DNA of 64,000 nucleotides from an uncultured Neokomagataea sp. (GTDB lineage Bacteria; Pseudomonadota; Alphaproteobacteria; Acetobacterales; Acetobacteraceae). The number at the start of each line of letters is the position of its first letter. Position 1 is the stretch's first letter. Location of the stretch: assembly GCF_946476835.1 (NCBI RefSeq), contig NZ_CAMKWA010000001.1, positions 1 through 64,000 of the forward strand. Direction: 5' to 3'. The notes under the pieces were generated by a model. It was given only the letters and a program-made list of their open reading frames with translations, did no database searches and was not told where the DNA came from. The position numbers were made by a program, and so were the translations under genes. Shown in pieces: positions 24,526-50,965 of this stretch.

Positions 24526-25220
24526 GATGTTTGGCTTTGCAGTACACGCGCCACGAGTGGGACGAGTTCAGACATGTGCGATATCCGCACAAAACCAGGC
24601 TGGGGCCAAAAGGCAGGTAAAGGCTTACCGTCTTCTCGTAACAAGACACAACTCATACCAGCCTTCCAAGCTGCCTCTGCTCCGGGGTCACTGTCTTCAA
24701 TAACGAGGCAATTTTCTGGCGCTTGTTTCTCCTGCTGTGCTGCGTACAGATACACGGCAGGAGATGGTTTTGGTTCTCCCATGTCATTCGCTGAATGTAT
24801 GCGGTTTTCTGGGAAAAATTGCGTCATATTCGTCCGTGTAAACTTCGCTTCCATCTCTTGAACAGACGAATTTGATCCCACACGAACCGGCATTCGCAAA
24901 CGCCGTATTCCTTCAAGCATTTCAGGAGAACCACTTACAGGTTCTGCCATTTTTTCCATAATATGTACGAGATTTTGACGCAAAATGAACGCCGTATTTT
25001 CTGGAAGTGAATGCCCTAATTCTGCTTCCAAATTCCGCACAACATCCGGCAAAGCCATGCCTATAAAACGTTTATGCGCCTCATCATCCGAGATTGATAA
25101 GCCTAAGCTACGCGCAAACTGCGCTGTAGCCCGGCAAGATGCAACCTCACTATCCACTAAAACACCATCACAATCAAAAATGATGAGTTTTAAGCTGCCA
25201 GAAGGATCAAGTGCCGTCAT
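24522..25220 (-). CDS. HAD-superfamily phosphatase (beta-PGM/Gph-like)
   Basis: Haloacid dehalogenase hydrolase, subfamily IA: nucleophile Asp16 and acid Asp18 in FDCDGVLVDSE, a helical cap domain (residues ~25-90), the Ser/Thr motif RVGSNSSVQ, Lys in GEPKPSPAVYL and the acidic pair EDSDPGAEAA. It probably removes phosphate from a small sugar phosphate or phosphoglycolate. The substrate is not predictable, and nothing ties it chemically to haem. It overlaps hemE upstream and hemJ downstream by four bases each, so all three are translated together. Confidence 0.88.
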   Translation of the reverse strand: MTALDPSGSLKLIIFDCDGVLVDSEVASCRATAQFARSLGLSISDDEAHKRFIGMALPDVVRNLEAELGHSLPENTAFILRQNLVHIMEKMAEPVSGSPEMLEGIRRLRMPVRVGSNSSVQEMEAKFTRTNMTQFFPENRIHSANDMGEPKPSPAVYLYAAQQEKQAPENCLVIEDSDPGAEAAWKAGMSCVLLREDGKPLPAFWPQPGFVRISHMSELVPLVARVLQSQTS

Positions 25221-26311
25221 AAAGACCTTACCGCTGCAACAAGTTCTGCCACATGTTCTGGAGGTGTATGCTGCATCACACCATGTCCAAGATTAAAAAC
25301 ATGTGAACGATGACGCAAAGAATGACAAATAGACTGTGCCTCTTGCACCATCGCCTTCCCGCCTGAAAACAAGATTGTCGGGTCTAAGTTGCCTTGTAAC
25401 GTGACATGGGGGGCATGTTTATTCAACAGATCAGCGATCTGTACAAGGTCAGCACTCGTATCCAGTGCCAAAGTGCCTATGCCTGTTTTCTGTGCATATT
25501 CAACAACCATCACCCCAGCCAAGCGCGGGAACCCAATAATGGGAATTTCAGGATAACGTCCACGCAGAATGGCAACAATCCGTCGTGTAGGCTCAATAAC
25601 TGTACGCCTGAAAGCTGAAGGGGGTAGTAAACCAGCCCATGAATCAAAGAGCATAACGGCTTCAGCACCAGATTCGATTTGACCAAAAAGCATATCGGCA
25701 GTTTGTTCAACAAGAAGATCAATTAAACGATCAAATAATAATGGATTTTCCAACATCATTTTACGCGTTGTTGCAAAATCTCGTGATCCACCACCTTCAA
25801 CCATGTAGCAGGAAACAGTAAAAGGACTTCCTGCAAAACCTAACAAGGTTGTTTCTTTTGGTAATGACTTCGTTAAACGTGTTAACGTTTCACGAATAGG
25901 AGCGGTAATCTCTGCAATACGCGCAGGGTCTAAACGCGCTAAATCTTGTTCTGAACGAATAGGTTCCAGTACAGGACCACGACCTTCAATAAATTCTAAT
26001 GATTGCCCCATAGCCCACGGCAAAATGAGAATATCAGAAAACAAAATAGCACCATCCATGCCGTAACGTCGGATAGGCTGTAAGGTAAGTTCTTCTGCAA
26101 TATCCGGTGTTGTACACCGGGTTAGAAAGTCCGCTTGTGCACGCAAAGCGCGGAATTCAGGCAAATATCGTCCAGCTTGTCGCATTAACCACATTGGTGG
26201 TGGCCATACTGCTTCGCTTTTGAGTGTTCTTATGAGTTTTTTTTCGACAGAGGCTGAACCAGTCACATCACAAGCTTTCAATGCGGAATCAGTGGAACGA
26301 AATGAATTCAT
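25217..26311 (-). CDS. hemE: Uroporphyrinogen decarboxylase
   Basis: Decarboxylates the four acetate side chains of uroporphyrinogen III to give coproporphyrinogen III in haem synthesis. The N-terminal signature PPMWLMRQAGRYLPEFR and the internal GFAGSPFTVSCYMVEGG are diagnostic. The ATG at 26311 is used; an in-frame GTG three codons earlier is possible, and neither has a strong ribosome site. First gene of hemE-HAD-hemJ. Its upstream region is the repeat-rich candidate origin, as in Caulobacter, where hemE promoters lie inside the origin. Confidence 0.96.
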   Translation of the reverse strand: MNSFRSTDSALKACDVTGSASVEKKLIRTLKSEAVWPPPMWLMRQAGRYLPEFRALRAQADFLTRCTTPDIAEELTLQPIRRYGMDGAILFSDILILPWAMGQSLEFIEGRGPVLEPIRSEQDLARLDPARIAEITAPIRETLTRLTKSLPKETTLLGFAGSPFTVSCYMVEGGGSRDFATTRKMMLENPLLFDRLIDLLVEQTADMLFGQIESGAEAVMLFDSWAGLLPPSAFRRTVIEPTRRIVAILRGRYPEIPIIGFPRLAGVMVVEYAQKTGIGTLALDTSADLVQIADLLNKHAPHVTLQGNLDPTILFSGGKAMVQEAQSICHSLRHRSHVFNLGHGVMQHTPPEHVAELVAAVRSL

Positions 26312-26320
26312 AACGCTCAC

Positions 26321-26695
26321 TAACCATGAATAATAAAAGAAAGAAATCCTGTTGGGATTATAGAACCCTGTGGTACTTGGGGTACCCGGCTTTCAGAGAA
26401 TGTACCCCAGCTTACGCACAGTGTGTACAACTCTACAGGATAGGAAAAATGCGGGCTGCATGATTCTATCCCGTTTTACCCACAGAGGGGGTGTGTACAA
26501 TCCCCATTACAGAGAGGTGTACCCACTCATCCCCAGTACTCGGTACTTGTTTGCGGTAAGGCAGTACCGTCCCCATGTACCCCAGTACTCGAACACTGTA
26601 CTGACAGGGTTTAAGTCGGAAGAGACTCGATTCCTTTTGGTGAGCCATAGTCTCTTCAAATGCTCTTGGCGATAGGTTGCTGTGTACAAAATGGT
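26321..26695. other. Candidate chromosomal replication origin (gene-free, upstream of hemE)
   Basis: No convincing gene is present; the short open frames on both strands have no recognisable products. The stretch carries 13 GTAC tetranucleotides, three identical TGTGTACAA nonamers (26422-26430, 26492-26500, 26681-26689), and TTACGCACA (26412-26420) and TTACCCACA (26476-26484). The last two differ from the DnaA box TTATNCACA at one position, and the first type is also one base off when reversed. An AT-rich patch lies at 26325-26350. The + strand changes from C-rich to G-rich around here. In Caulobacter and some other alphaproteobacteria the origin lies beside hemE (established knowledge); assignment here is inference. 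It also contains the hemE promoter. Confidence 0.6.
26373..26687. repeat. Cluster of GTAC-centred short repeats
   Basis: GTAC occurs at 26373, 26382, 26402, 26425, 26495, 26519, 26536, 26543, 26564, 26577, 26585, 26598 and 26684. About one would be expected by chance in 315 bases. Several are in longer repeats: CCCCAGTACTCG twice (26531, 26580), GTGTGTACAA twice (26421, 26491), GGTACTTG twice and TGTACCCCAG twice. The palindromic core suggests binding sites for a dimeric protein or for DnaA, or a methylation target. Confidence 0.8.
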
Positions 26696-28231
26696 TCAAA
26701 GATCACCATAACGACCATAGCTATGACCATAATGATGGCCATGAGGTCCGGCGTGATGGGGTACACCATGGATCGCGTTACTGATCTCTTTGAGTAAGGG
26801 GTACGCTGCACGATAACGCTCCTGAGACTGAGCGTAAGCATCACAAAGTGATGGATTAGGTATAAGTGTCTCTGCCCGTAATGGTGGCAGACAGATGCTG
26901 CTAATGTCTTCTTGTGTTACGGCTAGTCGCGCTAAGCGCGCAGCACCAAAAGCCCCTCCCTGTTCACCATGAGCTAATCGGTTCAAAGGGAGGTTCAAAA
27001 CAGAGGCGAGGATTGAAATCCATAAACGACTGCGCGAACCACCGCCAATAACATCGGCCGAGTGCAGCACAGAGCCTGCATCATGCAGGCCATCTAACGC
27101 ATCCCGAAAAGAATGGGCTACGCCTTCGAGAACTGCTTGTGTGAGTTCAGAGCGTGGCAAAGAGCGATCAAGGCCTAGAAAAGCTCCTCGGACATGGCCG
27201 TCATTATAAGGCGTACGCTCACCGTTTAGGTAAGGCAGGAAGAGGGCACGGGAGGGGCGTTCTACATGATCGGGTAACTCCGATAGTAGTGTGCTGACAT
27301 CGCAATGATTAATGTCGGCCCACCATGCTAATGAGGAAGCTGCAGAGAGTGTGACGCCCATTTGGTGCCATGTGTGTGGCAGAGCATGGCACATGGCGTG
27401 GATGGCACTCTGTGTGTTGGGACGAAAACGGTCCGTTGTGCACCACAGAACCCCAGATGTGCCGAGGGATAAAAACGCATCTCCCGCTTGCACAGCGCCT
27501 AACCCTACAGCTGATGCTGCATTGTCCCCTGCACTGCCTGCAATCTGTGGTGGGTGTTCTATGCCCCAGCGAGCGGCTAAGGACGCTGAGAGGGTTCCTG
27601 CGGCATCAGTGCCTTCACAGAGGCGTGGCATAGCCTCTTGGCTTAATCCTGTGGCATCCAAAGCGGCATCAGACCATTTGCGCTGTCCGACATCTAACCA
27701 GAGCGTCCCTGATGCATCGGACATGTCTTCGATCTTTTCGCCACAGAGTTTAAATCTCAGCCATGCTTTGGGCAGCAGAACGTGACGGACATTTTTGAAA
27801 ATATCTGGCTCATGTTTACGCACCCATAAAAGTTTGGGCGCGGTGAAGCCGGGCATTGCGATATTTCCACAAACGGCACGACTTTGGGGAAAGGCTTGTT
27901 CAAAGGCGCGACATTCTTCGTCTGATCGCACATCATTCCAAAGGATACAGGGGCGTAGCACTTGGTCATGGGCTCCCAATAAGACGGCACCATGCTGTTG
28001 CCCTGAAAGGCCGATGCCTTTCACTTGGGCCATTGCTTGTGGAGCATCTTCTTTTAACCCATCGAGAGCTTCTAGAAGAGCATCCCACCAGTGCTCTGGG
28101 TTTTGCTCGCTCCAGCCATTATGGGGGGATTGGACGGAGAGTTTGACGGTGCGGTTTGCAAGAACGTGTTGCTGTTCATCAACCAAAATGGCTTTTAAGC
28201 CGGAGGTGCCAGCATCAATACCAATATACAT
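26696..28231 (-). CDS. xylB: Xylulokinase
   Basis: FGGY-family kinase that phosphorylates D-xylulose to xylulose 5-phosphate, feeding pentitol and xylose carbon into the pentose phosphate pathway. It begins MYIGIDAGTSGLKAILVDEQ and shows the xylulokinase motifs GLSGQQHGAV, PCILWNDVRSDEEC, AGSAGDNAASAVG, SLGTSGVLW and VIGGGSRSRLW. Length is 511 aa. The last ~24 residues (GVPHHAGPHGHHYGHSYGRYGDL) are a His/Gly/Tyr-rich tail not expected in xylulokinases, coded next to the candidate origin. The ribosome site is weak. The preceding 28232-28416 is non-coding and probably holds its promoter. Confidence 0.94.
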   Translation of the reverse strand: MYIGIDAGTSGLKAILVDEQQHVLANRTVKLSVQSPHNGWSEQNPEHWWDALLEALDGLKEDAPQAMAQVKGIGLSGQQHGAVLLGAHDQVLRPCILWNDVRSDEECRAFEQAFPQSRAVCGNIAMPGFTAPKLLWVRKHEPDIFKNVRHVLLPKAWLRFKLCGEKIEDMSDASGTLWLDVGQRKWSDAALDATGLSQEAMPRLCEGTDAAGTLSASLAARWGIEHPPQIAGSAGDNAASAVGLGAVQAGDAFLSLGTSGVLWCTTDRFRPNTQSAIHAMCHALPHTWHQMGVTLSAASSLAWWADINHCDVSTLLSELPDHVERPSRALFLPYLNGERTPYNDGHVRGAFLGLDRSLPRSELTQAVLEGVAHSFRDALDGLHDAGSVLHSADVIGGGSRSRLWISILASVLNLPLNRLAHGEQGGAFGAARLARLAVTQEDISSICLPPLRAETLIPNPSLCDAYAQSQERYRAAYPLLKEISNAIHGVPHHAGPHGHHYGHSYGRYGDL

Positions 28232-28416
28232 GAGGGAGATCCGTTTCAGCCTTCGCTTAGACGGTCTTGTTACGCCTCATGCTTAGGGTGGAGGGATCAC
28301 GATCTTTGTGAGGGACTGCACGATTACGCGAGTAAGAGCTTTGTGGTCCTAGCGTTTTAGGTGCTCATGGCCTGTGTGGAGAGTAGATGGCAGGCTGACG
28401 TGATGACCTCGCGTGG

Positions 28417-29280
28417 TTACCCGCTTTTTCGTCTTAAAAAAGGGCGTGTATGATCCCATACTTTCAAACCACGTAAAGCGAGGTCCGCAATCCCCGGCAG
28501 CAGCCGAGGTTGCATAAGGGATGGGTTAAAGGCTTGCATGCGCCGGGCATTTTCACGGTAGCAATCTTCAACAAAACCACGGAATGAAAAACCATCTAGG
28601 AATAGGTTGGTTTGTGTAACGGCAAAATCTTTCCCATCATTGGCGTCTTGCCCGCGTTTTGCCATACCGAAGAGACGTTTTGCGGCACGTCCATAAAAGC
28701 GTAGTGTTTTGAGCTGGCGTCGCGCGTTGCCTAAGCCTTTTTGCTTTTCACGCCATGCCATATAGTTGATGAAAAACACGATATGCCGTGTTTCTTCAAA
28801 CATGAGCACATCAAAAATTTCAAACATGGCTTCGGGAAGAAAACGTGATTGTCGTGCCGTTTTGAATGCGCCAAAGCCTAAAAAAGCATCCAGACATTCC
28901 CCAAAACCGAAATCGATAAAGGCTGTTTCAAGATCATCTGGAAAAGCTTCCAAGGGTTGTGGATGTGCATCTAACCCATAACGCTCGATCATGACCTGAA
29001 TGAGCTTGGCGTGACGTGCTTCTTCTAGTCCTTGTAAGGCAACGGCCTCTTTTACGATTGGGTCTGTAATCTGTGGTGTGAAAGCATCGACAATGGCACC
29101 GGCCCGGCGCTCTGTATGATACACTTCTTGCCAGAAAGGGACGGCACGTAGCTTGGCGAGGTCTTCTTCAGATAAATCAGGCCAAGGGAGGCTTTCTGGA
29201 TCAAACACCTGATGGGTGTCGATGAATTGCTGGCAGAAAAAACGTTTATGCGCTTCTGAACCGGCTTCGATCACAGACAT
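28417..29280 (-). CDS. Ferritin-like diiron protein, paralogue A
   Basis: 287-aa protein with the two E...ExxH pairs of a four-helix diiron carboxylate bundle: Glu57 with Glu87-x2-His90 (LEEARH), and Glu128 (GFGECLD) with Glu163-x2-His166 (FEETRH). Such sites bind two irons and activate oxygen in ferritins, oxygenases and desaturase-like enzymes. The substrate is unknown. No signal peptide. The ATG at 29280 follows AGGGAGAG; the open frame upstream runs into the neighbouring gene. It lies directly downstream of a clear paralogue with the same strand and motif spacing, so the pair probably arose by duplication and may work together. Confidence 0.75.
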   Translation of the reverse strand: MSVIEAGSEAHKRFFCQQFIDTHQVFDPESLPWPDLSEEDLAKLRAVPFWQEVYHTERRAGAIVDAFTPQITDPIVKEAVALQGLEEARHAKLIQVMIERYGLDAHPQPLEAFPDDLETAFIDFGFGECLDAFLGFGAFKTARQSRFLPEAMFEIFDVLMFEETRHIVFFINYMAWREKQKGLGNARRQLKTLRFYGRAAKRLFGMAKRGQDANDGKDFAVTQTNLFLDGFSFRGFVEDCYRENARRMQAFNPSLMQPRLLPGIADLALRGLKVWDHTRPFLRRKSG

Positions 29281-37445: not shown

Positions 37446-37458
37446 ATTAGTGCTTGAC

Positions 37459-37480
37459 GGGGGCAGGCTGCCCCCTTATA
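37459..37480 (+). terminator. Possible terminator after recJ
   Basis: GGGGGCA and TGCCCCC pair around a three-base loop, followed by only TT. The stem is strong and the T-tract poor. It also separates recJ from the tRNA. Confidence 0.45.
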
Positions 37481-37498
37481 CACCCACTCACGCCTCCA

Positions 37499-37574
37499 GT
37501 CCCGTTCGTCTAGAGGCCTAGGACACCGCCCTTTCACGGCGGCAACACGGGTTCGAATCCCGTACGGGACACCA
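37499..37574 (+). tRNA. tRNA-Glu (UUC)
   Basis: Complete cloverleaf: acceptor GTCCCGT (37499-37505) with ACGGGAC (37564-37570), anticodon stem CCGCC/GGCGG with loop CTTTCAC and anticodon TTC (37533-37535), T-arm CGGGTTCGAATCCCG, discriminator A37571 and encoded CCA (37572-37574). The stretch 37575-37844 that follows is AT-rich and non-coding. It has a weak AAGAG/CTCTT hairpin near 37635-37650 that may end the tRNA transcript. Confidence 0.97.
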
Positions 37575-37844
37575 TCATATTGGCATAATATAATGTCTTT
37601 ATGATTATGAGGAATGAAATCCTTAAAAAATAAAAAGAGTAAAAGCTCTTAATAATTTTGTCGTTATCTTACACGATAAAATGCAACGTTTTGCAAAGCA
37701 TAGTCTTTGTATCTCATGAACACGATGACGCATTTTGTAAAAGAAGTGCTGCATATCACCGGTTAAACGGAACGCTGACGCGTTTTAAGATATGTGCCTA
37801 TATGCACGCATATGCCGTCTATCATGGATGTATGAGGAAAGTTT

Positions 37845-50501: not shown

Positions 50502-50526
50502 AAAAGGGCGCCTTAAAGGCGCCCTT
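50501..50526. terminator. Terminator between nadC and the small minus-strand gene
   Basis: GGGCGCC, five-base loop, GGCGCCC. It is followed by TTTTT when read on the minus strand and by TT on the + strand, so it is best for the minus-strand gene and probably bidirectional. Confidence 0.75.
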
Positions 50527-50531
50527 GTCAT

Positions 50532-50768
50532 CTAGCAGTTACAGCCGTTGGTCTGGCCTTGTGCCTGCCGGATCACGTGATGATCAATCCACTCAGCAAC
50601 AAGACGGCGCGCCTCGGTGACTGAGGATTCGGGATGGTGGATACGGTACAACGTTGTGCAAGCCGCAAAAGCCTGCATGTCAGGTTGCCCAACGCCACGT
50701 AGTTCTTGATAAGCGGTCACTACGGCACGCTCACATTTGCGGCCGATCCGGCGGGTCTCGAAGCTCAC
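50532..50768 (-). CDS. Small conserved-looking protein of unknown function
   Basis: 78 aa, not recognised. Basic and helical in pattern (MSFETRRIGRKCERAVVTAYQEL..., SSVTEARRLVAEWIDHHVIRQA), with an odd C-terminus NGCNC carrying two cysteines. GTG start with AGGAG six bases upstream and its own terminator argue that it is a real gene. No signal peptide or membrane segment. It is divergent from pyrE; 50769-50965 is non-coding and should contain both promoters. Confidence 0.65.
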   Translation of the reverse strand: MSFETRRIGRKCERAVVTAYQELRGVGQPDMQAFAACTTLYRIHHPESSVTEARRLVAEWIDHHVIRQAQGQTNGCNC

Positions 50769-50965
50769 GGCTGCTCCTGCAAAACTTTAGAAGAGTTCGG
50801 ACCTCTTCCTCTATGGCTACCGCTCGCTGCATGCAAGGGCTATGTCGTATCTAAATGTGTTGTTATCGCCTGAGGTGACAAAATTACCCTACCCTTTGAG
50901 GGGGGAGATCATTAAACCAGCAGGCATAGATCTAAGCACGGCCAAGGAAAGCGGGAGAGTATAAA

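Follow-up and report, generated by a model that had tools for sequence, protein, structure and literature searches.

The locus described here raises the question of where chromosome replication begins in the organism that carries it, and of what the initiation machinery would recognize there. The window analyzed, a stretch of 64,000 nucleotides, is the start of contig C1 in a 2.44-Mb draft genome of 33 contigs. The closest named relatives of its hemE are from Gluconobacter, with 74% identity at the protein level in the best segment, and this genus is also nearest by DNA (66–68% identity); the organism is inferred to be, in all likelihood, an acetic acid bacterium near this genus. The stretch immediately upstream of hemE, which hemE directly adjoins, is with high probability the chromosomal origin (oriC) of this acetic acid bacterium, an assignment made from sequence alone, with no replication experiment and no read depth, because the floor of the local skew lies there, displaced cores in other genomes keep the skew with them, the core is conserved, and dnaA is distant. 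With equal confidence, and likewise by inference, the element is read as belonging to the hemE type of origin, in a new form that is rich in GTAC and has no exact TTATCCACA in the window. The element and its two neighbors are the following:

25217–26320, minus strand: hemE (uroporphyrinogen decarboxylase; PF01208, E 1.4e-110)
26321–26695, no strand: hemE–FGGY kinase intergenic stretch, the highly probable oriC (skew floor 26062–26600 and conserved core)
26696–28231, minus strand: FGGY-family sugar kinase (PF00370/PF02782)

GC skew in the window is negative up to 26 kb and positive beyond, and its cumulative minimum, calculated for the window only, is -1782 at 26062 and -1781 at 26600, giving a floor that spans 26062–26600. 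Farther along C1, the skew is also positive in the stretches sampled between 64 and 304 kb. The element is densely packed with the palindrome GTAC, with 13 copies in 26321–26695, whereas 2000 shuffles that preserve dinucleotide composition average 2.35 and never exceed 9, and 11 of the 13 fall within a 224-base core (26368–26591; Poisson P ~4e-12). Segments of 224 bases reach at most 4 copies elsewhere in the window (outside 26100–26800) and in 400 kb sampled from the rest of the genome. Taken over its full length, the window is not rich in GTAC (109 observed vs 135 expected).

The core was described by a sequence-only model, R1, built from 24 rows, whose sole match in the window and in the genome is at 26368–26590 (143.4 bits). 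Within and around this core the following parts were distinguished:

26325–26349, plus strand: A+T-rich, purine-rich stretch on the hemE side, 24% GC, candidate unwinding element (by composition; unwinding is inferred)
26368–26591, plus strand: conserved noncoding core (model R1), single copy in the genome, kept in 26 of 30 loci, its own included
26368–26376, minus strand: left DnaA-like box, consensus CATCCACAG, degenerate in the window (CTGTGG in 24/24 rows, CTGTGGATG in 12/24)
26379–26387, no strand: GGGGTACCC, site s0 (23/24 rows)
26401–26408, no strand: TGTACCCC, site s20 (GTACC invariant in alignment A3)
26412–26420, plus strand: TTACGCACA, weak DnaA-like box (variable; TTTCCCACA in 11/24 rows)
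26422–26430, minus strand: TGTGTACAA (TTGTACACA on the reverse strand), site s43, GTAC-containing DnaA-like box (identical in 15/24 rows)
26476–26484, plus strand: TTACCCACA, weak DnaA-like box (variable across rows)
26492–26500, minus strand: TGTGTACAA, site s113 (24/24 rows)
26529–26546, no strand: ATCCCCAGTACTCGGTAC, tandem GTAC sites s154 and s161
26564: GTAC, site s182
26570–26588, no strand: TCCCCATGTACCCCAGTAC, sites s195 and s203 (identical in 13/24 rows; TTATCC/CTATCC-type letters in several non-acetic relatives)
26681–26689, minus strand: third TGTGTACAA, beyond the core (altered in the two nearest relatives)

The A-rich stretch occupies the same position, on the hemE side, in aligned relatives. 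The spacing of the GTAC sites is also kept: across 20 loci they lie, within one base, at offsets 0, 20, 43, 113, 153, 160, 182, 195, and 203, with a mean of 8.2 of these nine offsets filled (range 6 to 9 per locus) and 52 further copies at other places. In the same loci GTAC reaches 10.7–10.8 copies per 400 bases, against means of 0.15–2.8 for seven other palindromes of the same composition, and the flanks of the sites are conserved too, yet they differ between sites. At the position of s0, GGTAC is retained even in six aligned non-acetic genomes. The nonamer TGTGTACAA is found nine times in the whole draft genome, three of them in the window, and five of the other six copies were inspected (L005–L009), each lying inside a long reading frame; TTACGCACA at 26412 is one of two copies in the window. 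A first-pass annotation of these letters had pointed to several DnaA-box-like nonamers, to clustered repeats, and to a switch in strand composition, all of which held. The nonamers are TGTGTACAA at 26422, 26492, and 26681, TTACGCACA at 26412, and TTACCCACA at 26476, and the switch corresponds to the skew floor given above, but the third TGTGTACAA stands outside the core and is not kept in the two nearest relatives. Its claim that no other gene-free stretch exceeds 300 bases is open to doubt, with gaps of 399 bases (37446–37844, holding a tRNA-Glu at 37499–37574) and 464 bases (50502–50965) also present between long ORFs of the window.

The noncoding core is present in 26 of 30 hemE loci, counting that of the window, and is absent from L013, L014, L015, and L019. 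A protein-coding role was rejected, with the frame of an overlapping 101-aa ORF (26370–26675) broken by stops in 13/24 rows and row lengths differing by one base. In a search of 397 genomes of the family, in which strict filters lost some weak matches, R1 matched 125 at E up to 1e-3, always in one copy each; the match was strong (E below 1e-20) in 110 of these genomes and weak in 15. Seven of the weak matches had a hemE position available and lie 59–144 bases from the aligned hemE end. When tested on 80 hemE loci from named members of the class, R1 was strong in ten, namely three Gluconobacter, three Acetobacter, one Gluconacetobacter, one Komagataeibacter, and two Commensalibacter, with a marginal match in L061 (15.6 bits, E 0.0025), and within the 3 kb of sequence examined no match was found in Bombella (L044) or Parasaccharibacter (L043). 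A class-wide sample of 385 genomes yielded four matches, all Acetobacteraceae. The GTAC-rich architecture is thus probably unusual, strong core matches having been seen within the Acetobacteraceae only, and no description of a GTAC-rich origin was found in the open-access literature searched.

The position of the core beside hemE leaves room for the explanation that the element is a regulatory leader, or an RNA gene, of hemE or of its neighbor. This reading is supported by the fact that the element abuts hemE in the great majority of loci (26/30), and it is opposed by three genomes (G101, G118, and G032, three of the four whose hemE loci lack the core; G118 and G032 are nearest to Bombella, at 82% DNA identity), in which the core is present but lies 19.5–26 kb from hemE and the skew flip stays with the core. 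In G118, the skew minimum is at 886445, the core starts at 887183, and hemE is at 912068 (738 bases from minimum to core); in G032 the corresponding positions are 58875, 59521, and 85566 (646 bases), and in G101 they are 41988, 42190, and 61934 (202 bases). The minima are about 20–27 kb from hemE in all three and stay near the displaced cores, and therefore the skew belongs with the core and not with hemE. An RNA gene was in addition rejected because Rfam gave no hit within the core at E values up to 1; one weak match, below its gathering score, lies outside the core at 28376–28418. The leader or RNA gene reading can be regarded as virtually ruled out, and the origin reading is retained.

Skew sampled over larger distances behaves in the same way in further genomes. 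For example, in G218, which is of the same genus as the window, 11 stretches before the core are all negative and nine after it all positive, and in G070, 10/10 stretches before the core are negative and 9/10 after it positive. Similarly, the sampled skew of G169 (from genus group g31, in which G030 and G117 have Acetobacter as nearest relative) flips at the core from -0.140 to +0.058. The flip in G375 is weak and local, and the arms are irregular.

The main competing location is beside dnaA, in which case the hemE element would be something else. Two Acetobacter genome papers have put oriC near dnaA (PMC3751514; PMC13209655), and the sampled skew of G070 does switch sign near dnaA (position 1174). 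The switch in G070, however, runs from positive to negative, as is expected of a terminus. In G169 the skew is positive to either side of dnaA (0.85 Mb) and turns negative between 0.86 and 1.1 Mb, and the genome of the window shows positive skew throughout the two stretches sampled on C10, the contig with dnaA. In KSO5, oriC had been assigned to the skew maximum, at a distance of 51 kb from the assigned dif. In addition, the distance from dnaA to the core amounts to 0.346–0.499 of the contig, with a median of 0.450, in 15 genomes with both on one contig of known length (G025, G022, G060, G070, G046, G149, G013, G040, G378, G136, G126, G173, G388, G169, and G375), a distribution that would be unlikely under random placement (KS P 6e-8, relatedness ignored). 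A dnaA-side origin was rejected, the negative-to-positive flip being at the core and dnaA far away, and this alternative is now all but untenable. In all 15 genomes measured, dnaA lies 35–50% of the chromosome from the origin, toward the terminus. Because dnaA is so distant, assemblies rotated to dnaA start far from the origin. The hemE-side assignment places the origin for industrially used bacteria, several of whose assemblies start at dnaA, which is also where the two papers put oriC.

The candidate origin upstream of hemE that the first-pass annotation had proposed has held, on the local skew, on the skew of G218, G070, and G169, and on the three displaced cores. The check it had set beforehand, that the repeats should recur upstream of hemE in relatives, held in 26/30 loci (own included), and a skew minimum beside dnaA instead, which would have refuted it, is not what is seen, with the flip at the core and the sampled skew near dnaA reversed if anything. 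Its expectation that a GTAC-rich origin would be unusual also held, on the distribution and literature search given above. The search for CtrA and DnaA sites that it had suggested found no CtrA consensus TTAA-N6-8-TTAA (N7 included) in 26000–27000, no Caulobacter-type TGATCCACA in 26300–26700, and no exact TTATCCACA or its complement in the entire window; the element has degenerate DnaA boxes only.

Cori of Caulobacter crescentus, one of the closest known systems, lies between hemE and COG1806 and has DnaA, CtrA, and IHF sites (PMC1914354). Like Cori and other hemE-linked origins, the element of the window is upstream of hemE and has an A+T-rich stretch and DnaA-like boxes; unlike Cori, it has neither the CtrA consensus nor TGATCCACA, and canonical boxes are replaced by GTAC sites. 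The gene on the other side differs as well, COG1806 being replaced by the FGGY kinase in the window and by maf in 27/30 loci (assigned by tblastn with the maf of L022), although a distant relative, G076, has the Caulobacter partner gene (Kinase-PPPase). The neighbor is known to vary among other hemE origins too (PMC1914354). The window, with its sugar kinase at 26696–28231, and its two nearest relatives (L011 and L012) are the only exceptions to maf at this place, and the swap of neighbors probably reflects a rearrangement right at oriC.

In aligned non-acetic Acetobacteraceae, the left box reads TGTGGATAA, TGTGGATGA, or similar, and several of these relatives have letters of the TTATCC/CTATCC type at the places where TGTACCCCA and GTACTC stand in acetic acid bacteria. 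The core departs from other alphaproteobacterial hemE origins in that several of its box-like positions carry GTAC (TTGTACACA, TGTACCCCA) and not TTATCC-type letters. An altered specificity of DnaA was rejected as the cause, the DNA-reading region of DnaA domain IV being nearly invariant across 29 genomes with and without the GTAC sites, and the DnaA of G066, compared separately, having nearly the same reading region apart from scattered changes. The loss of canonical boxes while the reading region stays nearly the same makes the real needs of DnaA directly testable.

Two explanations of the GTAC sites do without methylation. The sites may simply be the DnaA boxes of this clade, with TTGTACACA and TGTACCCCA acting as weak, cooperative boxes for which methylation is irrelevant. 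It is known in general that relaxed boxes follow TTNTNCACA, which TTGTACACA fits, and that the Streptomyces box TTGTCCACA is one letter from TTGTACACA; the alignment of the TTATCC/CTATCC-type letters of several non-acetic relatives with TGTACCCCA and GTACTC also favors this possibility. Against it, the reading region of DnaA is nearly unchanged and therefore cannot explain a change of boxes, and GGGGTACCC is unlike a DnaA box. Alternatively, an unidentified protein other than DnaA may bind the sites, comparable to CtrA at the Caulobacter origin, and promote or block initiation, for which the nearly invariant spacing, the conserved flanks, and the lack of a TTAA-N6-8-TTAA CtrA site in 26000–27000 can be cited. 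This too remains no more than possible, with no candidate protein known (SeqA being the only one searched for) and with flanks that vary from site to site, so that one long motif does not fit all.

A third reading involves a DNA methyltransferase. When 21 genomes were searched with PF01555, all 21 proved to have a CcrM-like enzyme, which in the genome of the window has the NCBI CcrM model as its best match though below the cut-off of that model, and 20 of them a second, shorter enzyme, the exception being G066. The second enzyme has the motif TSPPYN, which is generally taken to mark N4 enzymes, and among its relatives of solved structure the two best matches bear the name DNA cytosine-N4 methyltransferase. 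It lies directly downstream of mltA (named by eye) in 15/16 loci, including that of the genome of the window:

G000:C3:106497–107303: N4-type methyltransferase (L260), downstream of mltA

The enzyme matches 171/397 genomes of the family, distributed as 110/110 with a strong core, 11/15 with a weak core, and 61/287 of all those without a strong core; of the strong-core matches, at least three (those in G210, G215, and G247) are interrupted by one internal stop. In the class sample of 385, it matches four genomes (E up to 1e-50), all Acetobacteraceae, and with no match outside this family no independent gain was available for a test. No restriction gene was recognized by eye beside the enzyme in two loci (2.7 and 2.5 kb, the wider surroundings being outside the scope), and no annotated type II restriction gene lies within 3 kb of its nearest relatives on Paracoccus plasmids (~50% identity, the second over 57% of its length only); a GIY-YIG nuclease gene is ~2 kb from the first of these.

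The link between enzyme and sites extends to genomes with few sites. Among 45 family members without a strong core (G029 included), the 23 with the enzyme carry on average 1.91 GTAC in the 450 bases upstream of hemE and the 22 without it 0.50 (P 4e-5, relatedness ignored), and the other seven palindromes show no enzyme-linked difference at 0.05 in these genomes (GATC is nearest, at 0.058). A single GTAC is found in 14/23 of the enzyme-positive non-acetic genomes, and two are retained in three enzyme-negative genomes (G004, G076, and G084). A phylogeny-aware test was never significant, with GTAC differing in 1–3 of four independent pairs on supported branches of the hemE tree, and the sign test could not have reached significance because only four such pairs exist; the direction was the same at thresholds 1, 3, and 6 and mixed at 2, where some pairings were reversed. 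The co-occurrence of enzyme and sites, and the location, conservation, and spacing of the sites, are established by the sequences themselves.

Three acetic-type genomes without an enzyme match, G066, G029, and G116, have 0, 1, and 0 GTAC per 450 bases and 14, 2, and 1 exact TTATCCACA in ~900 bases, respectively. All three cluster inside the acetic clade in the hemE tree, the placement of G029 and G116 being tentative due to their odd letter make-up. In G066 (L019; C1, about 948–949 kb) the 14 exact TTATCCACA stand between hemE and maf, with zero GTAC and no core, and the local skew is weak, with its minimum at 952128; the origin of this genome appears to have been rebuilt, as inferred from sequence alone.

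In the mechanism proposed from these observations, DnaA would load on the left box beside the A-rich stretch, on the hemE side, and also on degenerate, GTAC-bearing boxes inside the core, and would open the A-rich stretch. The GTAC sites would be marked by the co-occurring cytosine-N4-type methyltransferase, whose specificity is untested, and after passage of the fork the half-marked sites would alter the binding of DnaA until marked again, which would amount to a timing device like that of Dam and SeqA with another base and another motif. SeqA was found in 0/10 genomes (a control search was positive in E. coli), and without it the mark would act on DnaA directly, the candidate boxes containing GTAC, or through an unknown reader. 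That methylation of GTAC tunes DnaA binding or initiation is a promising lead but an inference with no data on GTAC methylation or on the specificity of the enzyme, and it is rated as less likely than not; the conserved flanks of the sites fit a plain protein-binding site as well. The bolder version is that acetic acid bacteria time replication by m4C at ~10 GTAC sites of oriC, some of them in re-coded DnaA boxes, that hemimethylation holds the origin back, and that the lineages which lost the enzyme (G066, G029/G116) reverted to canonical TTATCCACA, a proposal held to be clearly less likely than not. If true, it would add a third methylation clock to Dam/SeqA and CcrM, with a different base and motif and without SeqA, and would offer a concrete and cheaply testable case of replication control by N4-methylcytosine.

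Dense GATC marks the Dam-controlled origins of Escherichia coli and Vibrio cholerae (PMC2865523), and the element resembles these in the strong enrichment of a palindromic tetranucleotide and in a co-occurring methyltransferase apparently without a restriction partner. It is unlike them in having GTAC and not GATC, a cytosine-N4-type and not an adenine enzyme, and no SeqA in the 10 genomes searched, and methylation has not been shown. A precedent for the proposed mark in an alphaproteobacterium is M.RsaI of Rhodobacter blasticus, which methylates GTAC as m4C (PMC6256690); its kinship to the present enzyme is untested and, apparently unlike the latter, it belongs to a restriction system. Another m4C enzyme, M.Ssp6803II of Synechocystis, modifies a different motif (GGCC), and its authors link m4C to DNA replication and repair, with no origin cluster reported in the sections of that paper bearing on it (PMC6560206). 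No m4C methylome of an acetic acid bacterium was found in the open-access literature searched. The gene for the N4-type enzyme shares a contig with hemE, ~4–8 kb away from it, in G109, G067, and G105, none of which has a strong core, and the enzyme may once have been a neighbor of the origin.
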